Shown: positions 2,552 to 40,162 of the stretch, one piece after another
How the letters are laid out: each line of letters opens with the position of its first letter
How positions within the stretch are numbered: the stretch's first letter is position 1
NCBI RefSeq assembly: GCF_002836595.1
Contig: NZ_PJBB01000003.1
Span: 4,376,501 to 4,440,500, forward strand
Direction of reading: 5' to 3'
DNA: 64,000 bases
From: Tenacibaculum sp. Bg11-29
GTDB lineage: Bacteria > Bacteroidota > Bacteroidia > Flavobacteriales > Flavobacteriaceae
Notes under the pieces: model-generated
What the model saw: the letters and a program-made list of their open reading frames with translations, nothing else
The model's database searches: none
What the model was told of the DNA's origin: nothing
Made by a program: the position numbers and the translations under genes

Positions 2552-3118
2552 ATGGATCCATTTTTAGGACAAATCGTATTATTCGGAGGGAATTTTGCAC
2601 CAAGAGGCTGGGCATTATGTGAAGGTCAATTATTGCCTATTTCACAATACTCTGCTTTATTTTCAATTTTAGGAACAATTTACGGAGGAGACGGAAGAAC
2701 TACCTTTGCTTTACCAGATTTACGTGGTAGAGCTGCAATTAGCTCTGGTCGTGGACCAGGATTATCTGATCGTAGATTAGGTTCAAGAAGTGGACAAGAA
2801 ACTCATACATTAACAATTCCTGAAATGCCTTCTCATAATCACTCAGCTCAAGGGACTGTAAAGGTAAGTTCAGCAGATTCAACAAAAACAGCTGCTACAG
2901 CAGATTCATCAATAGCTACACCAGGGGCACAAGTAGGTAGAGGTTTTACTGCAACAATGGGATTCAATGATGCAACACCAGACATTTCTTTAAATGCTCC
3001 TTCTAACAGTGTTACTGTTAATAATAATGGTGGAAATCTAGCTCATAATAATATGCAGCCTTATTTAACTACAAATTACATTATTGCTTTACAAGGAGTT
3101 TTTCCTTCAAGAAATTAA
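2552..3118 (+). CDS. Phage tail collar domain protein (microcystin-dependent-protein family)
   Basis: 188-aa protein built almost wholly from a tail-collar domain (PF07484 type). The N-terminus has the family signature FGGNFAPRGWALCEGQLL, then YGGDGRTTFALPDLRGRA. The middle (about residues 100-150) is low complexity and rich in Ser, Thr, Ala. The end NNMQPYLTTNYIIALQG is also typical. Such free-standing genes are common in Bacteroidota outside prophages, and their role is not settled; no other phage gene lies nearby. It converges with a methyltransferase gene and shares a terminator with it. Confidence 0.85.
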   Translation: MDPFLGQIVLFGGNFAPRGWALCEGQLLPISQYSALFSILGTIYGGDGRTTFALPDLRGRAAISSGRGPGLSDRRLGSRSGQETHTLTIPEMPSHNHSAQGTVKVSSADSTKTAATADSSIATPGAQVGRGFTATMGFNDATPDISLNAPSNSVTVNNNGGNLAHNNMQPYLTTNYIIALQGVFPSRN

Positions 3119-4419: not shown

Positions 4420-7400
4420 ATGATACAAAAAACTACTTTTTTAACCTTTAAATGCTTGCGGTTTTTTGTCGCATTTATTTTTCTGAGCTTTTTAAACTTA
4501 AAAACTTCAGCTCAAACAACAGAAACATTCTCTACTGTTGCTAGTGGTGTAAATACCTTTACTAGCAATTCTCAAAATTTCACAATTACAACCTTAAGCA
4601 ATCCATTAAAGCCTTTTGGCGGTGATTTGGAATACCCTGGAACGGGATGGAATGGTACCAGTAATGACAACGGGTACATAGATAATGATGGAGGAACTCA
4701 TTCAAATCCATCTTTCAGCATAAAAACTACTGACGGAACTGATTTCACGGCTAACAAAGTTTTTTTATTCTTTGCAGATCAATCTCTTAATCAGGCAGTA
4801 TCTGGAACACTAAATATTGTTGGTAAAAAAGACGGTGCAGCTGGGGCAGTATTTACAATTAACACCAGTTCAGGTTATGTTACTACCACTGGTACTAATA
4901 ATGGTTTTACTGAAATAGATTTTACTTCTTATGGCGGATCTGATAATTCAAGTACAGTTATCGATGAACTTATTTTCACCATGGGTGGAAGTTTTCAATA
5001 TATTGCTTTAGATGCCTTTACTTGGACACTTGCTCCTACTGATGCAATAGCACCACGTATAAGCAGTATAGCTCGTCAGAGTCCAACTACAAGCCCTACA
5101 AATGCAGATGCTTTGGTTTGGGATGTAACTTTTGATGAAGCGGTAAGTAATGTAGATGCAACTGATTTCACTGTAACTGGTACTACAGCTACAATTGCTT
5201 CGGTAACAAACCCAAGTGGTAACGTATATAGAATAACAGCTTCTGGCGGTGATTTAGCTGGTTTAAATGCAACAGCTACCTTAGGTTTTGCAGGTACGCA
5301 AAACATTACTGATGCTTCTGCTAATGCATTAGTTAATTACACTCCAACAGGAACTAATAATAATACTTTTGTAGTAGATAATAACTCACCTACTACCCCT
5401 ACTACAGTTACTCAAAACACAAGCGATTTAACACCAACAATTACAGGTACAAATGCTTTAGGTACTGCGCTACCTACAGGAGAAACAATGACAGTTACCG
5501 TAAACGGAGCAACATATAATGTCGTACCAAATGGTAGTGGTAATTGGAGCGTAGATACAGGAGTAGCTACACCTGCTTCTGGTACATTAGGTACTTTTGT
5601 AAATGGAGTAAGCTACGAAGTAGTTGCTACTGTTACAGATTTAGCTAGTAACACAGCTTCTGATGCAACAAGTAATGAAGTAACTATAGATACTTCAGCA
5701 CCAACAGCACCAACAGTTGTTGTACAAACTACAAGTGATGCAACACCAACAATTACAGGAACAAACGCTTTAGGAACTGCATTACCTGTTGGAGAAACAA
5801 TGACTGTTACCGTAAACGGAGCAACATATAATGTAGTACCAGGTGGTAGTGGTAATTGGAGCCTAGATACAGGAGTAGCTACACCTGCTTCTGGTACATT
5901 AGGTACCTTCGTAAACTCTGTAAGTTATGAAGTAGTAAGTACAGTAACAGATTTAGCAGGAAACAATACTTCTGATGCAACCAATAATGAAGTAACTATA
6001 GATACAATAGCACCGCTTATCAGTAGTATAACTCGTCAGAGTCCAACTACAAGCCCTACAGATGCAGATGCATTAGCATGGGATGTAACTTTTAATGGAG
6101 CAGTAACGAATGTAGATGCAACAGATTTTACAGTAAGTGGAACAACAGCTACAATTGCTTCAGTAACAAACCCAAGTGGTAATGTATACAGAGTAACAGC
6201 TTCTGGTGGAGACTTAGCAGGGTTGAATGCAACAGTTACCTTAGGATTTGCTGGAGGACAAAATATTGCTGATGCTTCAGGTAACGGATTAGTTAATTTA
6301 ACACCAACAGGAACAAACAATAATACTTTTGTAGTAGATAATACACCTCCCGTTTACACTTGGACAGGTGCATTTAATAGTGCTTGGAATACCACATTAA
6401 ATTGGAATCCGACTAGTGTTCCTCCTACAAATGCAGATATTATTATTCCTGGTGGTTTAACAAATTACCCAACAGCTAGTGCTGCAGTAACATGTAATTC
6501 ATTAACGATTAACTCTGGTGCTAGTTTTATTCCTCAGAGCACAGTAACAGGTACTGTAACTTATAAAAGAAACTTACCTACAACAGGTGATTGGTATTTA
6601 GTTTCTTCACCTATTGCTAATGAAACATTGCAAAATGTAATAGCAAATAATACTTTTGCAACAGGTGCTACTCCTGGTAATATTGGTATTGGTCTTTACC
6701 AGAATAATAATGCTTCTCAATGGGCATACGCAACTGCAGGTCTTACAGGTAACATAATTCCAGGAATAGGATTATCGGTACAACTGGCTACTGCTGGTGA
6801 GTTAATATCTACAGGTACTGCTTTAAACACTTCTAATGTAATATTTGGTATATCAACAGGAACTACTACAAATTTCAACTTACTTGGTAACCCTTTTACT
6901 GCCTTTATAAATTCTGCAACATTTGCAACTACTAACACAGCAGTTTTAACTGAAGAAACTGTTTGGTTATGGAACGGAACAGCGTATGTAACATACAATA
7001 ACGCAAGCCCTATAGAAGTTGCTCCAGGACAAGCATTTTTTGTAGAAGCTTCAACTGGAGGCGCTGTAATTTTTACAACTGCCAACAGAAGTCATCAAAA
7101 TGCGGATACATTTATGAGAGAAGCTCCAAAATCTACTTTTGAATTATCTGTAGAAGAAGGAACTAATAAGAGTGCTACTAAAGTCTTTTATGCTGATAGT
7201 AAAACTACTGGTTTTGATAATGGATACGATTCTAAAATGTTTGGAGGTACAGATTACAAATTCAAAGTATATACTGAATTGGTTTCTGATAGCAAAGGAA
7301 AAAAATTAGCGATTCAAACTTTACCGAATCAAAATCTTGAAACAATGATTATACCTGTAGGTTTAATTGCTGAAGCTGGTAAGAAAATTACCTTTTCTGT

Positions 7401-7815
7401 AAAAGCACAAAACCTACCAGATAACACTAATGTATTTTTAGAAGATAGAATTAATAATACTTTAGTAAATATTTCTGAAGAGAATCATTCAGTAACTTTA
7501 AAAAGTGCTGCTAAAGGTACTGGTCAATTCTACATTCATACAAGTGCTAAAAACTTAGAAGATGTTGATATTACAAAAGATTTACAAAATGTAAGCATTT
7601 ACAAATCTGCTAATAATAGTTTAACTGTTGCTGGTTTACAAACTGATAAAGCATCCGTAAATGTATATTCAATTTTAGGTAAAAAAGTAATTAGTACAGA
7701 ACTTAAATCAACAGGAGTTCATGTAATTCAATTACCTAAAACTGCTGCAGGAGTTTATATCGTAGAATTAAGTTCTAGTTTAGGAAAAATTAGTAAGAAA
7801 ATTATTTTAGAGTAA
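4420..7815 (+). CDS. Secreted repeat protein with Ig-like domains and type A T9SS sorting signal
   Basis: 1131-aa exported protein. It has an N-terminal signal peptide (about residues 1-31, ending LKTSAQ) and a first beta-rich domain. Four repeat domains follow in the order A-B-B-A (residues 210-321, 323-425, 426-528, 530-641). The A copies look like cadherin/Ig-like repeats starting at SSI-RQSPTTSP; the B copies carry TPTITGTNALGTALP, the usual bacterial Ig-like motif. After these come an NWNPTSVPP segment and a beta-rich region. The last 75 residues (VNVYSILGKKV ... GVYIVEL ... KKIILE) are a type A C-terminal domain, which sends proteins across the outer membrane by T9SS and anchors or releases them. 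A 57-aa peptide gene starts 14 bases after the stop, so the two are probably co-transcribed. Likely an adhesin or surface protein; the ligand is unknown. Confidence 0.88.
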   Translation: MIQKTTFLTFKCLRFFVAFIFLSFLNLKTSAQTTETFSTVASGVNTFTSNSQNFTITTLSNPLKPFGGDLEYPGTGWNGTSNDNGYIDNDGGTHSNPSFSIKTTDGTDFTANKVFLFFADQSLNQAVSGTLNIVGKKDGAAGAVFTINTSSGYVTTTGTNNGFTEIDFTSYGGSDNSSTVIDELIFTMGGSFQYIALDAFTWTLAPTDAIAPRISSIARQSPTTSPTNADALVWDVTFDEAVSNVDATDFTVTGTTATIASVTNPSGNVYRITASGGDLAGLNATATLGFAGTQNITDASANALVNYTPTGTNNNTFVVDNNSPTTPTTVTQNTSDLTPTITGTNALGTALPTGETMTVTVNGATYNVVPNGSGNWSVDTGVATPASGTLGTFVNGVSYEVVATVTDLASNTASDATSNEVTIDTSAPTAPTVVVQTTSDATPTITGTNALGTALPVGETMTVTVNGATYNVVPGGSGNWSLDTGVATPASGTLGTFVNSVSYEVVSTVTDLAGNNTSDATNNEVTIDTIAPLISSITRQSPTTSPTDADALAWDVTFNGAVTNVDATDFTVSGTTATIASVTNPSGNVYRVTASGGDLAGLNATVTLGFAGGQNIADASGNGLVNLTPTGTNNNTFVVDNTPPVYTWTGAFNSAWNTTLNWNPTSVPPTNADIIIPGGLTNYPTASAAVTCNSLTINSGASFIPQSTVTGTVTYKRNLPTTGDWYLVSSPIANETLQNVIANNTFATGATPGNIGIGLYQNNNASQWAYATAGLTGNIIPGIGLSVQLATAGELISTGTALNTSNVIFGISTGTTTNFNLLGNPFTAFINSATFATTNTAVLTEETVWLWNGTAYVTYNNASPIEVAPGQAFFVEASTGGAVIFTTANRSHQNADTFMREAPKSTFELSVEEGTNKSATKVFYADSKTTGFDNGYDSKMFGGTDYKFKVYTELVSDSKGKKLAIQTLPNQNLETMIIPVGLIAEAGKKITFSVKAQNLPDNTNVFLEDRINNTLVNISEENHSVTLKSAAKGTGQFYIHTSAKNLEDVDITKDLQNVSIYKSANNSLTVAGLQTDKASVNVYSILGKKVISTELKSTGVHVIQLPKTAAGVYIVELSSSLGKISKKIILE
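5047..5382 (+). repeat. Repeat A, copy 1 (336 bp)
   Basis: First of two closely related 112-codon units inside the T9SS protein gene. It matches 6007-6342 along its whole length with only scattered changes and no indels. The two copies flank two B repeats. Confidence 0.9.
5386..6003 (+). repeat. Tandem repeat B, two copies of 309 bp
   Basis: Copies at 5386-5694 and 5695-6003 each encode 103 residues and are nearly identical in their central part (the GTNALGTALP to TPASGTLGTF stretch). They sit between the two A repeats. Such arrays expand and shrink by recombination and may assemble wrongly from short reads. Confidence 0.9.
6007..6342 (+). repeat. Repeat A, copy 2 (336 bp)
   Basis: Second copy of the 112-codon A unit, same length as 5047-5382, closing the A-B-B-A array. 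Most differences are single-base changes. Confidence 0.9.
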
Positions 7816-7829
7816 TACAACATATCATT

Positions 7830-8003
7830 ATGAAAAAACAAATTGAAAATAAAAGTAAAGATATCTCTAGAAAAGAGGCATTGAAAAAAATAGGAGGCTA
7901 TAGCAAATACGCTGCTTTAACCGCTATTGGAACCTATATGATTTTAAACCCACAAAAAGCGCAAGCTCAAAGTCCTGCTGACCCAGGTAGTGGTGGTTTT
8001 TAA
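7830..8003 (+). CDS. 57-aa peptide with Tat-like export signal, candidate modified-peptide precursor
   Basis: A short gene, ATG at 7830 and TAA at 8001-8003, 14 bases after the large T9SS gene. The peptide begins MKKQIENKSKD, then SRKEALKKIG (resembling the twin-arginine motif SRRxFLK with RK for RR). A hydrophobic stretch follows (about residues 27-40), then an AQA-type signal peptidase site near residue 47. Cleavage would leave about ten residues, roughly SPADPGSGGF. A strong terminator follows, then a PqqD-HPr-kinase-like fusion and a nucleotidyltransferase, enzyme types that occur in RiPP (ribosomal modified peptide) clusters. Ser48 and Ser54 would be possible phosphate acceptors. That it is a real gene is well supported by spacing, composition and terminator; the precursor role is inference. 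Confidence 0.7.
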   Translation: MKKQIENKSKDISRKEALKKIGGYSKYAALTAIGTYMILNPQKAQAQSPADPGSGGF

Positions 8004-8026
8004 CACCTACTAAGTTTTTGACAATA

Positions 8027-8051
8027 AAAACCCCGATATTATCGGGGTTTT
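8027..8051 (+). terminator. Rho-independent terminator after the peptide gene
   Basis: AAAACCCCGAT, three-base loop, ATCGGGGTTTT: an 11-bp stem with a GC core and a T-run. It ends the transcript carrying the T9SS protein and the 57-aa peptide, and separates it from the kinase/nucleotidyltransferase pair. Confidence 0.85.
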
Positions 8052-8154
8052 GTTATTTTAATGATTCTACAATAGTACAGGTGCAAAAAAACCTCTTTCA
8101 ATTAAAAATAAAAAACAGTTTAAAAAGTATATTAATTATTTATTTTTACTGACT

Positions 8155-9261
8155 ATGATTATAAAACACTTAGAGAATAAAAAAGTTGTTTGGTTTAAAG
8201 ATACCAATGAATATATTGTTATTGAACCAATGGTAGCAGAAATACTTTCTTTGTTACATAACAAAACTGATAAAAAAGAAATTATCACTAAGGTTTTTAA
8301 TCAAATAAGTATACCACTAAAAGAAGCTGAAAATTTAGTGAGAGATATAGAAAACCTATTAAATAATCAACACTCTATAAAACAAGAATTAGTTCATGTT
8401 TCTAAACCTGATCATTTTGAACACAAAAAGTATTATAAAATAAATGATATTATTTTTAAGGTAAATTATTTATCTGAATTTGAATATGCTTTAGTACATC
8501 CCAAATTTGCGCATATAGCAATTACTACGACTAAAAAAATAACACATCATTTTGAAGTTTACAGTAATACCGAATTTATTTCTTTTACAATCAACAACAA
8601 TATTATCGGAACATGGAATTTAAGTGATGTTCATTATTTTCAAGGAAAATTTTCAATGAAAATTACTGAATTAATACATCATAAACCAGAAAATGAATGG
8701 CTAGGAGTTTTTCACGCTTCAGCTGTGAGTAATGAAACCGAATCTATTTTATTTTTAGGTGATTCAGGTAACGGAAAAAGCACTTCTTTAGCGCTATTAC
8801 AAGCAAATGGTTTTACTTGTTTAGCTGATGATTTTGTTCCTGTTGACGCTAAGAAACAAGAAGTATATAGTTTTCCTTCAGCTATTTCAATTAAGAAAAA
8901 TAGTTTACCAACTTTACTTCCTATATACCCTGAATTAGAAAACTCTGCTGAATACCATTTTAAAAGATTAAATAAAATCGTTAGGTACTTACCTACAAAT
9001 AATGTTAATCACAAATCAAAACAACCATGTAAAGCCTTAATTTTCATTAAATACAAAAAAGATAGTGATATAATTATTGATAAGATATCTAATATTAAAG
9101 CCTTTGAGCAATTAGTTCCTGATTCTTGGCTATCTCCAATACAAGAAAATGTTGAAACTTTCTTAAACTGGTTTTCAAACCTTCCTTGTTATCAACTTAC
9201 TTATTCAAACAATTCAGAAATGGTAGCAACGGTCTCGAAAATTTTTAATGATGAATTATAA
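8155..9261 (+). CDS. PqqD-like / HPr-kinase-like fusion protein
   Basis: 368 aa. Residues 1-90 look like a PqqD peptide-binding (RiPP recognition) domain: WFKDTNEYIVIEP, then IAEILSLL-type helix and a Val/Ile-rich helix. The C-terminal half is an HPr kinase/phosphorylase-related domain: Walker A GDSGNGKST at residues 202-210, then CLADDFVPVD, which fits the acidic residues of the HprK family. Relatives in lasso-peptide clusters phosphorylate a Ser on the precursor. No lasso cyclase or peptidase gene is present here. Its stop lies 14 bases inside the following gene, so the pair is translationally coupled. The peptide encoded at 7830-8003 is the obvious candidate substrate, but this is untested. 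Confidence 0.75.
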   Translation: MIIKHLENKKVVWFKDTNEYIVIEPMVAEILSLLHNKTDKKEIITKVFNQISIPLKEAENLVRDIENLLNNQHSIKQELVHVSKPDHFEHKKYYKINDIIFKVNYLSEFEYALVHPKFAHIAITTTKKITHHFEVYSNTEFISFTINNNIIGTWNLSDVHYFQGKFSMKITELIHHKPENEWLGVFHASAVSNETESILFLGDSGNGKSTSLALLQANGFTCLADDFVPVDAKKQEVYSFPSAISIKKNSLPTLLPIYPELENSAEYHFKRLNKIVRYLPTNNVNHKSKQPCKALIFIKYKKDSDIIIDKISNIKAFEQLVPDSWLSPIQENVETFLNWFSNLPCYQLTYSNNSEMVATVSKIFNDEL

Positions 9262-10324
9262 AGAAACCTTATTTTTTGTTGGGAAATGTTTAACCCTTAC
9301 TCACGAAAAACACAATCGAGATATCGTTGAGCTTGAATTAAAATCTAACAATATCAATTGGGATAATGTGGTTAAATTAAGCACAGCTCATTACGTTTTT
9401 CCTGCATTATATTGTAATTTAAAACGAGCAAACTTTCTACATTACTTACCTGAAGATTTAGTTGGATACATGAAACATATTACGGGTTTAAACCGTGAAA
9501 GGAATGAGCAAATAATTAAAGAAGCCAAAGAGCTAAATGAGTTACTACTTTCCAATAACATAACCCCTATTTTTTTAAAAGGAACAGGGAATTTACTTGA
9601 AGGTTTATATGAGGACATAGCTGAAAGAATGACAGGTGATATTGATATTTTATTTGAACAAGAAGACTGCATAACTGCTTTTAGAATACTTCAAGAAAAT
9701 GGCTACACCAATAAAGTATCAGAGCTATATAACGACCACAGACATTTACCTGCAATAACGCATCCAAAAAAAATTGCAGCTATTGAAGTTCATAAACAAA
9801 TGCTACGGATAGAAAAATCACCTTATTTTAATTATGATTCTGTAAAAAAAACTTTACAAATAATTAATAACACCACTTTTTTATCTTTTGATAATCAAAT
9901 TAAACTAACAGTATATTCGAAATTCATCAATGATAATGCCTACTTAATAAAAAACTTAAGTTTTAGAGCAGCTTATGACGTTTTTTTGCTTGACAAGAAA
10001 CTTGAATCAAAAACCGTTATTAAAGATATTAAGTTATCTAAAGAATTAAATGCTGGTTTAGAATTATATAATACGATACTATCTACTTTTAAAAACATTG
10101 AATTCAAATCAACTAAAGCAAGTAAATTATACCTAAAAAAGTATCTAAAAAACTTAGACAATGGACTCAATAAAAGAGCAAAGACTAATTTTATAAAACA
10201 TTACGTTTTCTATAAAGAAAGAATTAGAATAATACTTAAAGCTTTTTATAAAAAATCGTATTTAAAATTTATTTTTTCTAAACTAACAGATTACAACTGG
10301 TATAGAAAAAAAATTGGGTTCTAA
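9248..10324 (+). CDS. Nucleotidyltransferase family protein (PF14907 type)
   Basis: 358 aa, overlapping the kinase gene by 14 bases. The nucleotidyltransferase core is visible: PIFLKGTGNLL, then the metal-binding GDIDILF (Asp131 and Asp133), then a conserved EVHKQML segment. Proteins of this uncharacterised family are often next to PqqD/HprK-like genes in peptide clusters and may transfer a nucleotide or act on the phosphorylated product. No signal peptide. The last four bases overlap the convergent mpl gene. Confidence 0.75.
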   Translation: MMNYKETLFFVGKCLTLTHEKHNRDIVELELKSNNINWDNVVKLSTAHYVFPALYCNLKRANFLHYLPEDLVGYMKHITGLNRERNEQIIKEAKELNELLLSNNITPIFLKGTGNLLEGLYEDIAERMTGDIDILFEQEDCITAFRILQENGYTNKVSELYNDHRHLPAITHPKKIAAIEVHKQMLRIEKSPYFNYDSVKKTLQIINNTTFLSFDNQIKLTVYSKFINDNAYLIKNLSFRAAYDVFLLDKKLESKTVIKDIKLSKELNAGLELYNTILSTFKNIEFKSTKASKLYLKKYLKNLDNGLNKRAKTNFIKHYVFYKERIRIILKAFYKKSYLKFIFSKLTDYNWYRKKIGF

Positions 10325-11828: not shown

Positions 11829-14708
11829 ATGCAAAAAAAAATACTTTTTTCTTTGCTCTTATTCTCATTATCGTTATTTAATATTTTCTCTCAATGTGCA
11901 GGAGCAGATAATACGGTAACTATTTGTAATAAAGAGTCTGACACTAATTATCAAACATACAATCTTTTTAACCAATTACAAGGAACACCACTAGCAGGTG
12001 GTCATTGGTTTGCTAATAGTCCTATCAATCAAAACGCGATAAATAATAATACTGGTATTGTTAATTTGTGGGCAATAAATAGATTTGGCGAACATACTTT
12101 TACCTATACAAATCCAAATTGCAACGAAAGTTCAGAGATTACCATCTTTTTAGGAGGTTATCCTGGTGAAGACAATATAAATGGTGGTGCAAATGCCTGT
12201 AGCAATGATACAACTGTTAATTTATTTACTTTTTTAGACAATAACTTAACAAATTTAAGTGCCGATATTAATGGCGAATGGAAAGAAGTCCCAGGTACGC
12301 CTACTGGTTTTTTAACCGATAATATTTTCAATGCAGAACTTGCAGGAGCAGGTACCTATGCTTTAAATTACATTGTTAGTAATGTAAATTCTTGTGCTTC
12401 AAAAACGGCAACAGTAATATTAGAAGTTCATCGTAGTCCAAATGCAGGTATAGCCATGAATCTTGAAATTTGTGACACCGATAATTTAAGCCTATATGAT
12501 AACGTTAACTTGTTTGATTATGTTATGGGTCAAGATTCTAACGGTGTTTGGACTGACGTAAATAATACAGGACAAATTCAAAATGCATTAGATGCGACAA
12601 TCAATATTGAAGAAATTTATCAACTTTTTGGCTCTGGAAAGTACGATTTCACATATACTGTATATCCGCTTGGTGTCTGCGAAGAACAATCTGTTACTGT
12701 TTCAGTTATACTACCAAAAATAGCTGCTGCTTTTTCAGTTATAAATCAATGTAAAGACGATTCATTACTAATAGAAATTTTACATGAAGCTACTTTAGAT
12801 TCTTCAATGACTTATGATTTAGTATATGAAATTGTAAATACAACAACTAATAATATTGTTTACACTAATACTTTAAACGACATTAGTTTAACTGATGATG
12901 ACGGTAATATAAATTTAGAAAAAATAACACTTCCTAATGATACCTTAACACCTGGTAGTTATATAATAAGAACTGCCACAATTAATAATATAAACGGTAT
13001 TATTTGTAATTCTTTTATGGTAGTAGAAAAAAGTTTTATTATTTATGAAGGTAAGGCCAAAATAGAAGATACTTGTTATGATGAAGATGATCTAAACCTT
13101 ACCATTTATGATTTTTATAATGATGATGGAAGTTTGTTTACAGGTACAAAAACAGTTGATTATACAATAAAAGGTAGTACTAATGACTTAATTGTAAACA
13201 CGTATAGCCTTACTTTCTTAAATGGTGAAGCAATAATACCTATTAATTTTTCAAGCTTTCCTACTAATGAAAATGATTTTAACTTTACAATTTCATCAAC
13301 AAGCCAAAGCGGTTTAAACTGTATCAATTATGATTTTTCTATTAATAGAGTACCTGAAGACATTGAATTAGGTCTTACTATAGATAATGTATGTAATGCT
13401 TCTGACATAAAAGCTATTATAAACGCCCCAGCTATGGCAGATGGAGGATATACTATAAATTATGAAGTTTCAGAAGTAAATACGGCTAATATATTAACAG
13501 AAAATACTATTTTTTTTGCCGCTAGTGGAGGTAGCGCTAATTACAATATTGATATAAGTAACCTAGAAACTGGTACTTATAATGTTGTAATAAAAAGTAC
13601 TCAAAACGATACAACTCCATGTAGAACAGTATTTGATTTTGAAATACGAGAAAGTTTTTCTATAAATGGTATTCCCGATGCACCAGTGCTTAACGCAAAT
13701 CAATCATTCTGTTTATCAGACTATCACCCTAATTCACCTACACTTGCTAACATCGCTATTACTAGCGGAGAAAATTTAACTTGGTATGCTGATAATACAT
13801 CTACCACTCCTTTAAACTATTCAACAACTCTTGTTAACGGTGAAGACTATTATGTAAGCTCTAAAGACATAAGTAATAGTTGTGAAAGCTCTGACCGTAC
13901 AGCTGTAACAGTTACTATTTTAACTCCACAAATTGTAACATCTACAAATACAACCCCATTATTTTGCGGTATCGAAAAAGCCACTATTGCTAATTTAGAC
14001 GCTGAAGTAAACTCAGGAGAACTTTTATGGTATGATAGCCCTACTAATGGAAATTTATTAACTACAGATACTATACTAGTTAATGGAGTAACTTATTATG
14101 CTACAGAAAGCATTACTGGTTGTGAAAGTATTTCTAGATTACCATTTACAATTACTGTAATTGCTCCACCCATACCGGTAGTAGAGGGAATAACACTTTT
14201 ATGCGGATTAGAGAAACTTACATTACTTGATTTTGAAATGTCTCTAACCAATACCGCTAATTATAACTTTATTTGGTACGATGCTTTATTAGGAGGCCTA
14301 GAACTTGATAGTTCAGATTTACTTGAAGAAAACACTGTTTATTATGTTGCTAACATTCATCCTGGTTCAGGTTGTGAAAGTGAGCGAACTCCAATATCAG
14401 TAAGTCTTAACAACTGTAATCCTGAAGACTATGACTTTTTTATTCCTGACGGATTTTCTCCTAACGGTGATGGAGTTAACGATTTTTATTACATCCCTAA
14501 TATCGATTATTTTTATCCAGACTATCAATTAGAAATATTTAACAGGTACGGGCAATCGCTATTCAAAGGAGATGTTAATACTCCTAAATGGAATGGAAAA
14601 AGTACTTCTTCCAAAAACAATACTACAAGTGGAGTTTACTTTTACATTTTAAAATATAACAAAGATAATATTAAACCTAAACAGGGTAGAATTTACTTAA
14701 GTAAATAA
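11829..14708 (+). CDS. T9SS type B (gliding-motility C-terminal) secreted protein
   Basis: 959 aa. Signal peptide at residues 1-22 (ending FNIFSQ), then a long run of beta-sandwich units with Cys pairs, several with the Ig-like pattern LWYDSPTNG or TWYADNT. The last 90 residues form the type B sorting domain: DFFIPDGFSPNGDGVND, then LEIFNRYGQSLF, then GVYFYILKY. Type B substrates need a dedicated PorP/SprF protein, and such a gene begins four bases after this stop. Likely a cell-surface adhesin. The three genes from 11829 to 17728 form one operon ended by a terminator. Confidence 0.9.
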   Translation: MQKKILFSLLLFSLSLFNIFSQCAGADNTVTICNKESDTNYQTYNLFNQLQGTPLAGGHWFANSPINQNAINNNTGIVNLWAINRFGEHTFTYTNPNCNESSEITIFLGGYPGEDNINGGANACSNDTTVNLFTFLDNNLTNLSADINGEWKEVPGTPTGFLTDNIFNAELAGAGTYALNYIVSNVNSCASKTATVILEVHRSPNAGIAMNLEICDTDNLSLYDNVNLFDYVMGQDSNGVWTDVNNTGQIQNALDATINIEEIYQLFGSGKYDFTYTVYPLGVCEEQSVTVSVILPKIAAAFSVINQCKDDSLLIEILHEATLDSSMTYDLVYEIVNTTTNNIVYTNTLNDISLTDDDGNINLEKITLPNDTLTPGSYIIRTATINNINGIICNSFMVVEKSFIIYEGKAKIEDTCYDEDDLNLTIYDFYNDDGSLFTGTKTVDYTIKGSTNDLIVNTYSLTFLNGEAIIPINFSSFPTNENDFNFTISSTSQSGLNCINYDFSINRVPEDIELGLTIDNVCNASDIKAIINAPAMADGGYTINYEVSEVNTANILTENTIFFAASGGSANYNIDISNLETGTYNVVIKSTQNDTTPCRTVFDFEIRESFSINGIPDAPVLNANQSFCLSDYHPNSPTLANIAITSGENLTWYADNTSTTPLNYSTTLVNGEDYYVSSKDISNSCESSDRTAVTVTILTPQIVTSTNTTPLFCGIEKATIANLDAEVNSGELLWYDSPTNGNLLTTDTILVNGVTYYATESITGCESISRLPFTITVIAPPIPVVEGITLLCGLEKLTLLDFEMSLTNTANYNFIWYDALLGGLELDSSDLLEENTVYYVANIHPGSGCESERTPISVSLNNCNPEDYDFFIPDGFSPNGDGVNDFYYIPNIDYFYPDYQLEIFNRYGQSLFKGDVNTPKWNGKSTSSKNNTTSGVYFYILKYNKDNIKPKQGRIYLSK

Positions 14709-14712
14709 GACT

Positions 14713-15666
14713 ATGAAAAAGATACTTTTAGTAATTATATATATAAATACCGTTGCTGGTGTTTTTTCACAACAAGATCCACAGTATACACAGTACATGT
14801 ACAATCAGAATGTTATAAACCCAGCTTATGTAACTAATGAGTTAGGGGTAATTAATTTTGGATTCATGCATAGAACGCAATGGGCAAACGCTGTGGGCTC
14901 TCCAAAAACATATACTTTCTTTGCCCACGCTCCAATAACTGATAAATTTGAAGTAGGTTTATCTCTTATTACCGACAATGTTGGCGATAATGCTTTAAAA
15001 GAAAATAATGTGTATGCCGATTTTGCCTATACATTACAACTAAGCGAAAACCACCGGTTATCACTAGGACTAAAAGCAGGTTTTAGTAGTTTTAAAACAA
15101 ATTTCGCTAACTTTAGGTTTCCTGATGATAATACTATTAGTGGTGTTTTAACAAACGATTTAGCCTTTGATAATCAAAATAGCATAACCCCTAACTTTGG
15201 TTTTGGTGCTTTTTACTTTACAGATAAATATTATCTTGGGGTTTCTGTACCTAATCTTTTAAATTCAAAACATTTTACCGAAAAAAACGGTTTAAAAAGT
15301 ATTGGTGGAGAAGAAATACATTTATTTGCAAATGCAGGGTATGTTTTTACACTAAGCGACCTTATTAAATTAAAACCTTCTTTTTTATTAAAAGCCATTA
15401 AAGGATCTCCTATTGTTGTAGACACTTCTATTAACGTATTATTTAACGACCGTTTTGAAGGAGGTTTATCCTATAGAATAAACGATTCTTTTAGCGCTAT
15501 GTTTAACGTAAAAGCTACTGATAATTTAAGAATTGGGTATGCATATGATTACACAACAACAAACCTTAGTGATTTTAATTCAGGAACACATGAAGTGTTT
15601 GTTCTTTTTGATTTTGACACTTTAGGTCTTAAAAAAGGATATGATAAATCTCCTCGATTCTTCTAA
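14713..15666 (+). CDS. PorP/SprF family outer-membrane protein
   Basis: 317 aa outer-membrane beta-barrel. The family signature follows the signal peptide: QQDPQYTQYMYNQNVINPAY. The end is strand-rich with aromatic-tipped strands. PorP/SprF proteins work with T9SS to place type B substrates on the surface; SprF is needed for SprB in Flavobacterium johnsoniae. The partner is the protein encoded just upstream. The following gene's ATG lies 10 bases after the stop. Confidence 0.92.
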   Translation: MKKILLVIIYINTVAGVFSQQDPQYTQYMYNQNVINPAYVTNELGVINFGFMHRTQWANAVGSPKTYTFFAHAPITDKFEVGLSLITDNVGDNALKENNVYADFAYTLQLSENHRLSLGLKAGFSSFKTNFANFRFPDDNTISGVLTNDLAFDNQNSITPNFGFGAFYFTDKYYLGVSVPNLLNSKHFTEKNGLKSIGGEEIHLFANAGYVFTLSDLIKLKPSFLLKAIKGSPIVVDTSINVLFNDRFEGGLSYRINDSFSAMFNVKATDNLRIGYAYDYTTTNLSDFNSGTHEVFVLFDFDTLGLKKGYDKSPRFF

Positions 15667-15676
15667 AAAAAGCTAT

Positions 15677-17728
15677 ATGAAAAAAACAATTACAGTCTTA
15701 TTTACATTCTTCATTGTTATTTGTAGCAATGCCCAAGCAAATAGAGATTTTAAAAGAGCTAAAAAATACTTTGATAGAGCTTTTTATAGCAACGCTATTC
15801 CTTTATTTGAAAAAGCTATAAAAAAAGACAAGAACTTTAAAACAATAAAAAACTTAGCAGATTCATATTATTTTATAAACGATATGGATAAAGCAGCTAC
15901 AAACTATAAGCTACTTTTTAAGTATTATAAAAAATTAATAGACGAACCTTATTATTTCAGATATGCCAATACTTTAAAAGCAACTGGTGATTATAAAAAA
16001 GCTGATAACTTATTACGTTCATACTACAAAAAAAACGACGCTAAGAGACTTCAAAAACTGGAGAAAGAAATAGAATATCTTGAAAACATAAAAGCAATAG
16101 GTAATCGATATACTATTAAAAATTTAGCTATTAATACACCAAATTCAGAATTTGGAGCAATACAAAAAGGGAACAGTATTATCTTTTCTGCAGCTAAAAA
16201 AGATGATGAAGGCACCTCTAAAACATATGGTTGGACAGGAAATGGTTATTTAGACATTTATAAAGTATCATTAAATAACGAAACAGAACCATTTTCAACT
16301 TCAATAAACACAAAACTTCACGAATCTAATATCATTTTTACGAAGAATGCTAAAACAGCTTATTTTACTAGAAATAATCTAGTGAAAGGAAAACGTAAAA
16401 AGGACAATAAAAAAATTACTCATTTACAGATTTACAAAGCACAGTTAATTAATGGTAAATGGAAAAACATAACCTCACTACCATTTAACAATGATGAATA
16501 CTCATCAGAACACCCCGCTTTAAGTGATGATGAAAAAACATTGTATTTTTCTTCAGATATGCCTAACGGATATGGTTCTTTTGATATTTATGCTGTTACT
16601 ATAAATAATAATGGTACCTACGGAAACCCAAGAAACTTAGGAGCAACTATAAACACCCCTAAAAAAGAGCAATTTCCGTTTATTAGTAAAGATAATAAAT
16701 TATACTTTTCATCTAACGGTCATCCAGGTTTTGGCTCTTTGGATGTTTTTGTTAGTACAATTTCTAATAACAAATACAGCAAACCCGATAATATTGGTTT
16801 ACCAATAAACTCTGGTTACGATGATTTTTCATTTAACATAAACAACAAAACAAAAGAAGGCTTTTTTGCTTCTAACAGACCAGAAGGAAAAGGAAACGAT
16901 GATATTTATAAAATTGTAGAAGAGAAAGCTTTAATTATTGAAGATTGTAAACAATCTATTTCAGGTATAATTACTGATATTGATACTAAGGAGGTTATAG
17001 GAAATACACTAATTTTAATTGGTACAGATAATAATGATTTAAAAAAAATATATACAGATGCTAATGGGGCTTTTAGTTTTAGGGCAATTTGTGAAACTTC
17101 ATATATCGTTATAGCCTCTAAAGAAGGGTACCAAGAAAAAAGAAAGACAATCCCTACAAGTAAGCAAAGAAATAAAGATAACGATGCATCTATAGCCTTA
17201 AAATCGATTACTGAAATTGAAAAAGAAAAAAGAATTGCATTACAATTAAAAGCTAAAAAAGCACAAGAGTTAAAAACAACAGCCACAAATAAACTAAAAC
17301 TACAAAACAAAACAAAAATTGAGCAAGTCATTGCTAAAGAAAAAAGTTTAGAAAAAAATAACGGTAGAATTATTATTAAAACTGATGAAATAAACTTTGA
17401 TTATAAACTTTGGTATTTACGTAAGGATACTAAAAGAGCAATTAACTATGTGATTAAATTAATGGAAAAGTATCCAAAAATGGTTGTCGAAATAGGTACA
17501 CATTCAGATATTCGAGGAAATAATCGTTACAATTTAGAATTATCACAAAAAAGAGCAACCTCAGCAAGAATCTATTTTATAGAAAAAGGTATTAAACCCG
17601 AACGGGTTATAGCTATTGGTTATGGAGAAACACAACCTCTTATAAAATGTAAAACTGAAGATGCTTGTACTGAAGAACAACATGAAACAAATAGGCGATG
17701 TGAATTCGTTGTAAAACAAATATATTAA
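15677..17728 (+). CDS. PorE-like OmpA family protein (TPR, PD40, CRD, OmpA)
   Basis: 683 aa. Order of domains: signal peptide (residues 1-19), TPR-like helices (about 20-120), a PD40 beta-propeller (about 150-410, with repeats such as SDDEKTLYFSSDMPNGYGSFDIY), a carboxypeptidase-regulatory-like fold (about 430-510), an Ala/Lys helix, and an OmpA peptidoglycan-binding domain at the end (VEIGTHSDIRGNNRYNLELS). This is the PorE layout, anchoring T9SS parts to peptidoglycan. The start at 15677 gives a clean signal peptide (MKKTITVLFTFF); an in-frame ATG at 15641 would overlap the previous gene. Third gene of the operon. Confidence 0.88.
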   Translation: MKKTITVLFTFFIVICSNAQANRDFKRAKKYFDRAFYSNAIPLFEKAIKKDKNFKTIKNLADSYYFINDMDKAATNYKLLFKYYKKLIDEPYYFRYANTLKATGDYKKADNLLRSYYKKNDAKRLQKLEKEIEYLENIKAIGNRYTIKNLAINTPNSEFGAIQKGNSIIFSAAKKDDEGTSKTYGWTGNGYLDIYKVSLNNETEPFSTSINTKLHESNIIFTKNAKTAYFTRNNLVKGKRKKDNKKITHLQIYKAQLINGKWKNITSLPFNNDEYSSEHPALSDDEKTLYFSSDMPNGYGSFDIYAVTINNNGTYGNPRNLGATINTPKKEQFPFISKDNKLYFSSNGHPGFGSLDVFVSTISNNKYSKPDNIGLPINSGYDDFSFNINNKTKEGFFASNRPEGKGNDDIYKIVEEKALIIEDCKQSISGIITDIDTKEVIGNTLILIGTDNNDLKKIYTDANGAFSFRAICETSYIVIASKEGYQEKRKTIPTSKQRNKDNDASIALKSITEIEKEKRIALQLKAKKAQELKTTATNKLKLQNKTKIEQVIAKEKSLEKNNGRIIIKTDEINFDYKLWYLRKDTKRAINYVIKLMEKYPKMVVEIGTHSDIRGNNRYNLELSQKRATSARIYFIEKGIKPERVIAIGYGETQPLIKCKTEDACTEEQHETNRRCEFVVKQIY

Positions 17729-39765: not shown

Positions 39766-40157
39766 GGGGACGACTGGTTTTGACAGCGAGATCAGCGATA
39801 ATGTAAGCATACCGAGGAGTGAAGAGACAACTCGTTAAACTTTTTTTCAACTTTTTAAACGGCGAGAATAACTACGCTTTAGCTGCTTAATCCGAATCAC
39901 AGTAGGATTAGCCTAGGCACACAAGGTGTGCAAGCTTTATGTCCACGGATAGCCTTGATTTACGGCGCTTCACTTTTGGATATCGTAAAAGTAAATATAG
40001 AAAACTTGAAACTTCGGCAAGTTTTTGAAACTAAAGAAGATAAGCTATTAACAGAATGTTCTTAATCAGTTACTAGTCGAAAATTAAGAAAGAAATAAGT
40101 ATGTAGAAAGCATTTGAACTGCTTGTTTGGACCCGGGTTCGATTCCCGGCGTCTCCA
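39766..40157 (+). ncRNA. ssrA: Transfer-messenger RNA (tmRNA)
   Basis: Rescues stalled ribosomes with SmpB. The 5' end GGGGACG pairs with CGTCTCC at the 3' end to form the alanine acceptor stem. The T arm GGGTTCGATTCCC (about 40134-40146) and the D-like start ACTGGTTTTGACAGC are present. The tag reading frame runs from GGC at 39861 to TAA at 39888-39890 and encodes GENNYALAA, close to tags of other Bacteroidota. The CCA end is not encoded (CAA follows the discriminator A), so CCA is added after transcription. Confidence 0.95.
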
Positions 40158-40162
40158 CAAAG

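Follow-up and report, generated by a model that had tools for sequence, protein, structure and literature searches.

Gene order and the peptide gene

The window, the whole stretch of 64,000 nucleotides that was analysed, comes from the complete genome (~4.5 Mb) of Tenacibaculum sp. Bg11-29 and carries four forward-strand genes in a row. The first (4420..7815) encodes a type A protein of the type IX secretion system (T9SS), 1131 aa long, with a TIGR04183 sorting domain at residues 1065-1130 (33.7 bits against a cut-off of 23). Its C-terminal sorting domain (CTD, 7612..7812) is preceded by a module of ~355 aa (6493..7557). After a gap of 14 nt follows the gene for a 57-aa peptide (7830..8003), with a leader resembling a signal peptide (residues 1-46) and the core QSPADPGSGGF. 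The third gene (8155..9261) encodes a kinase in which a PqqD-like (RRE-type) domain (residues 1-70, 8155..8364) is fused to an HprK-like part with the P-loop GDSGNGKST at 8758-8784. The gap between these two genes holds a terminator-like hairpin of 11 pairs with a T-rich tail behind it (8027..8051, forward strand), 103 nt ahead of the kinase start; two terminator-like sites were found in the 800-base stretch against a shuffle mean of 0.1. The fourth gene (9248..10324) encodes a PF14907 nucleotidyltransferase (NTase) and overlaps the last 14 nt of the kinase gene. Beyond it lies a Mur-ligase-family gene on the opposite strand, and the system is therefore taken here as four genes. The peptide, fusion kinase and NTase genes lie exactly where an earlier sequence-only reading of this DNA had placed them. 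Its overall interpretation stands in part; it missed both the T9SS partner and the arrangement of six peptides per kinase described below.

Elsewhere in the window are a phage tail collar domain protein near the locus (2552-3118; PF07484, E 1.6e-29), a row of genes for a T9SS type B (CHU_C) protein, PorP/SprF and OmpA-domain proteins (11829-17728), and a tmRNA gene with the tag GENNYALAA (39766-40158).

A profile search for the peptide scored 7,997 candidates, of which 7,624 matched at E<=1e-3. Of these, 120 were listed and used, and none of the 120 carries a Pfam domain; named matches to the peptide include Polaribacter, Tenacibaculum, Winogradskyella and Psychroserpens. Scanning GTDB species genomes gave 430 peptide-encoding stretches, from which the best 79 distinct named loci were kept; judged by this peptide, the genome's nearest named relatives belong to Tenacibaculum and Polaribacter. 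In the 79 loci, pN/pS over a block of 37 codons was 0.124. This coding selection rules out a chance ORF or pseudogene and bears out the claim that the short, previously unlisted frame is a real gene.

Conservation was measured on 214 unique peptides, obtained by deduplicating the 79 named loci, 20 of the 23 peptide loci of a family sample (L014 and L020 are cut by contig starts and L021 was omitted) and the 120 listed homologues. Arg14, Ala17, Thr31, Gly34, Leu39, Pro41 and Ser48 are invariant in all 214, a figure that overstates constraint because these peptides are close relatives selected by similarity. The leader follows the pattern ITRKEALKKxG...KYAALTAxGTxxxLNPxxAQA. The core is near-constant: besides Ser48 (codon 7971..7973), Pro52 occurs in 212 and Gly53 in 211 of the 214 peptides. 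Ser48 stands in the context A-Q-A-x-S, near the likely cleavage site, and is the putative phosphate acceptor. In our judgement, conservation within the hydrophobic stretch appears higher than a simple signal peptide would require, which suggests recognition. The twin arginine of a canonical Tat peptide was found in 0/214 (the residue after Arg14 is Lys in 189 and Asn in 20), so the Tat-type signal proposed earlier is not a canonical one, although the genome encodes TatC (E 3.4e-62). Three peptides from two family genomes (L011, L012 and L018, in G013 and G014) have long extra C-terminal tails past the conserved core, one of them with KPGKP repeats.

The fusion kinase and the nucleotidyltransferase

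The predicted model of the kinase (pLDDT 93.3) matches HprK and PEPCK folds. Its N-terminal domain has a predicted bbb-aaa topology and aligns with the PqqD profile in hhalign (P 3.4e-5); the Pfam PqqD model (PF05402) scores 15 bits, below its cut-off of 23.4, and a PDB sequence-profile search with this domain returned no PqqD entry. The rows of the VIA-align fold comparison barely reach residues 1-76. From the predicted topology and the profile comparison we favour a PqqD relative, and the fusion proposed by the sequence-only reading holds on that footing, with a Pfam score under the cut-off. The HprK-related kinase A family (TIGR04352) matches 35/35 orthologues at E<=0.1 (best 1.3e-20). It differs in that the window kinase reaches 58.2 bits against a cut-off of 200 and aligns over residues 185-362 only.

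The NTase matches PF14907 at E 3.2e-33, so the coupling of a PF14907-type enzyme to the kinase, as first read, is confirmed by the match and the overlapping genes. Its invariant residues are K111-G112, R127, G130-D131-x-D133, E180 and H182, and a PDB sequence search gave no credible relative. PF14907 occurs in 50 of the 345 genomes of a phylum sample, and the NTase alone is therefore not diagnostic. Loci L085 and L090 (also L119 and L126) have near-identical peptides and kinases with 65.3% identity each to that of the window; the NTases of L085 and L090 have 52% and 61% identity to the window NTase. These sequences suggest that the NTase may be exchanged separately from the genes around it. 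A defence or phage gene was ruled out for the peptide, kinase and NTase by the absence of any PADLOC or PHROG match at E<=0.01.

Co-inheritance and the T9SS partner

In a family sample of 149 genomes (125 of them near-complete, at least 90%), the peptide was found in 15. The kinase gave 15 strong matches (E<=2.4e-32), among them one split in two frames (G040) and two partial (G048, G067), and the NTase gave 14. Two weak partial kinase matches (G084, G141) and two weak NTase matches (G041, G058) were not counted. All three genes occur in the same 12 of the 125 near-complete genomes. In the phylum sample five genomes have the peptide, and these five also have the full-length fusion (E<1e-100); the kinase-profile matches listed after them reach at most 63 bits and mostly cover the P-loop part only. 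Among the matches listed for a genus sample of 166 genomes, 147 have the peptide and 142 the kinase. The 128 near-complete ones divide into 120 with both, six with neither (G491, G535, G571, G593, G638, G644) and two discordant (G622, peptide only; G640, kinase only), kinase absence in G618, G622, G638 and G644 being deduced by elimination. The Fisher values for the near-complete family and genus genomes (6e-17 and, among the matches listed, 9e-9) overstate significance because the genomes share descent. With 12/125 family genomes holding all three genes and 126/128 genus genomes concordant for peptide and kinase, the co-occurrence check that had been suggested for these genes was carried out and supports a co-inherited set.

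The peptide is usually present in several copies per kinase. This genome has six peptides and one kinase. In the genus sample, among the matches listed, 589 peptides are spread over the 147 genomes (median 3, maximum 17; at least two in 112), and 137 of the 142 kinase-bearing genomes have a single kinase match. One kinase and one NTase would act in trans on several peptides.

The genome has 41 CTD matches, among them the T9SS protein upstream of the window's peptide. Each of the six peptides follows one of these 41 proteins, and five of the copies lie far from the enzyme genes. In 74 of the 79 best loci, a T9SS ORF ends 5-86 nt upstream of the peptide (median 25.5); 70 of the 74 show the module, and the other four begin at a contig start that leaves little beyond the CTD. 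The remaining five (L108, L124, L125, L131, L132) have a CTD piece upstream that is interrupted or contig-cut, that of L132 being weak (E 4e-5). The kinase lies within the flank of 26 and the NTase of 23 of the 79 loci. In the family sample, 18/23 peptide loci stand behind an ORF that by visual inspection has a CTD-like end, with gaps of up to ~313 nt. Of the other five, one comes second in a tandem, three are at contig ends and one (L015) lies behind a FolD-like ORF. The peptide family has thousands of members, and at the loci examined almost all of its genes adjoin one class of T9SS surface protein. Together with the kinase and transferase genes, this placement hints that cell-surface proteins may pass through a so far undescribed step of maturation.

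The partners form a class of their own. We compared 40 of the genome's 41 CTD proteins: the six linked to peptides have a long common C-terminal region (29-89% identity), and the 34 others give short matches near the end at most (<=63 residues, E>=0.006). An HMM of the module that excludes the CTD, trained on the genome's own and Tenacibaculum/Polaribacter-type rows, found 11/11 held-out partners (E<=7e-54) and 0/34 of the other CTD proteins (best E 0.05). The predicted structure of module and CTD is beta-rich (pLDDT 88.5). A PDB fold search with this region gave a good match through the CTD only, and generic Ig-like folds scored equally. Scanning ten partner proteins against Pfam gave nothing but the sorting domain in all ten. 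The partner is thus like other T9SS type A cargo in its above-threshold TIGR04183 domain and the predicted Ig-like fold of its CTD; it differs by the added ~355-aa module and the following peptide gene, neither of which the 34 other CTD proteins have. This genome also has eight clustered T9SS type A proteins whose C-termini closely resemble one another, with no peptide (G000:C3:817709-845253; L141, L142, L144-L146, L148, L149 and L168).

The pairing has exceptions. This genome has one peptide per module (six and six); a strict rule of that kind fails in other family genomes. Fourteen of 15 module regions were examined (L285, which ends at a contig end, was left out), and 13 of the 14 lack an adjacent peptide, the regions having been picked mostly for the absence of a called peptide. 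Eleven of the 13 are in genomes with a strong kinase match, and the others are in G066 (80% complete) and G121. The latter genome (99% complete) has a 285-bit module match and neither peptide nor kinase, and its L256 and L284 carry a close module relative with a different CTD ending; it is possibly an outgroup or a case of loss. Conversely, the genome of L015 (G136, 84% complete) has the peptide with no kinase or module match. A close match to the module is present in each of the 15 family genomes that have a strong kinase match (in G067 as fragments only); among the matches listed, wider module relatives occur in 99/149 family genomes, most at lower scores. The modules without an adjacent peptide, together with the G136 exception, imply that the peptide may act in trans in some lineages, or that the tie to T9SS is looser there than in Tenacibaculum.

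Comparison with known systems and proposed role

The closest published counterpart is LPP, the linear polyphosphorylated peptides of Bacillota (Popov et al. 2026, PMC13381572; published May 2026). In that paper, LPP are made by an RRE and an HprK from a cluster that also has an NTP transferase gene, LppK phosphorylates Ser3 of the linear LppA core (one to four phosphates seen), the core begins AQS (AQSNWK), deletion of lppN brings no visible change, and LPP are called restricted to Bacillota. The present system resembles LPP in its linear precursor with a conserved leader, its predicted RRE-like domain, its HprK-like kinase, its NTP transferase gene and the lack of a macrolactam cyclase among the neighbours scanned; the position of the LPP phosphosite, Ser3, is close to that of Ser48 in A-Q-A-x-S. 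It differs in that its RRE-like domain forms part of the kinase and is not a discrete protein, and that the [YW]xxP leader motif, which RREs bind in LPP and lasso systems, is found in 0/214 peptides. No SpI-type leader peptidase or MsbA-like transporter was found among the neighbouring proteins scanned. The system is not filed under LPP because of these three differences. Further differences are the signal-peptide-like leader, the short and near-constant core, the several precursors usually present per kinase, the T9SS partner and the Flavobacteriaceae host.

HprK-like kinase and nucleotidyltransferase tailoring genes are also shared with the phosphorylated and phosphoglycosylated lasso peptides paeninodin and pseudomycoidin. 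According to the literature (PMC8498205, PMC9266682, PMC7533575), the paeninodin-type kinase phosphorylates a Ser, and the attachment of hexoses to that phosphate depends on the nucleotidyltransferase gene; pseudomycoidin requires psmK and psmN for its phosphate and hexoses, and the chemistry of PsmN is unsettled. Lasso systems have a separate RRE (B1) protein, and their kinase acceptor is a C-terminal Ser, which only 4/214 peptides have here. No macrolactam cyclase or B2 protease was found among the neighbours scanned, nor is one visible beside the kinase and NTase in the ORF list of genome G234, and with the rarity of a C-terminal Ser this led us to reject a lasso system. The earlier observation that lasso cyclase, radical SAM and YcaO proteins are missing holds among the eight neighbouring proteins scanned, one of which had no Pfam match.

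The layout was previously suggested to be new. The fusion is in keeping with this suggestion; linear phosphopeptides made by an RRE and an HprK beside an NTP transferase gene are already in print (PMC13381572). New here are the kinase-fused RRE-like domain, the signal-like leader with a short near-constant core, the multi-copy arrangement in trans and the T9SS partner. A search of open-licence literature, which does not imply absence from print, returned nothing joining T9SS with PqqD, or HprK with PqqD and a nucleotidyltransferase.

It is probable that the kinase and the transferase modify this exported-looking peptide in some marine flavobacteria. By analogy with the roles of kinase and NTase in paeninodin-type systems and LPP, and given the position of Ser48 near AQA, we propose that the PqqD-like domain would bind the conserved leader of the ~55-aa precursor and that the fusion kinase would phosphorylate the invariant Ser48 of the core. 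The PF14907 enzyme might then add a hexose or nucleotide onto the phosphate; this step is uncertain, given the lack of visible change on lppN deletion and the unsettled chemistry of PsmN. Export would be directed by the hydrophobic leader, which would be cleaved off at the AQA site, leaving a linear phosphopeptide of ~11 residues in the cell envelope, where it may act on or with the T9SS proteins that bear the module encoded by the neighbouring gene. On balance, we think that the product is such a linear, phosphorylated and decorated peptide with a part in the maturation, attachment or assembly of module-bearing T9SS proteins. More specifically, it might be an envelope cofactor dedicated to type IX secretion, produced in the cytoplasm, exported and then attached or bound to the module of particular T9SS proteins, which are thereby fixed, assembled or capped on the surface; this reading is tentative and rather doubtful. 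If true, it would give HprK/NTase-modified peptides their first biological role and T9SS its first ribosomal peptide cofactor, as far as is known. Study of the kinase could also bring to light a so far hidden step by which marine Flavobacteriaceae display T9SS surface proteins.

The enzyme set, which fits LPP and paeninodin-type tailoring, could also furnish a free secreted linear phosphorylated RiPP like LPP, an antimicrobial or a signal, with the T9SS gene a mere neighbour or co-regulated; the genomes with more modules than peptides would suit this too. We consider it unlikely, since a module-type T9SS neighbour stands at 70 to 74 of the 79 best loci and beside each of this genome's own six copies, five of which lie far from the enzyme genes, the core is near-constant, unlike that of variable-core RiPPs, and no ABC exporter was found among the eight neighbours scanned. 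The invariant Thr31, Gly34, Leu39 and Pro41 within a single hydrophobic stretch, unexpected in a disposable signal peptide, would instead fit an uncleaved inner-membrane accessory subunit for T9SS cargo, regulated reversibly by the kinase as HPr is by HprK. Against such a subunit, AQA-x-S with the C-terminal tail resembles a cleavage site with an acceptor-like Ser48 beyond it, and the NTase has no place in the scheme, which makes it quite improbable. Finally, the kinase and NTase might have a substrate elsewhere, such as the T9SS module before export or a glycan, with the peptide an independent exported helper, as the enzyme genes without an adjoining peptide gene in G234 and G123 would allow. 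This we judge highly improbable: peptide and kinase are jointly absent from six of the 128 near-complete genus genomes and discordant in only two, and a kinase with a predicted PqqD-like domain would be expected to act on a peptide.

Apart from these loci, another Bacteroidota genome carries a cassette (L236:5931-10481) in the order NTase, PqqD, HprK and a large asparagine synthetase-like ORF, possibly a lasso-like or other phosphopeptide cluster.
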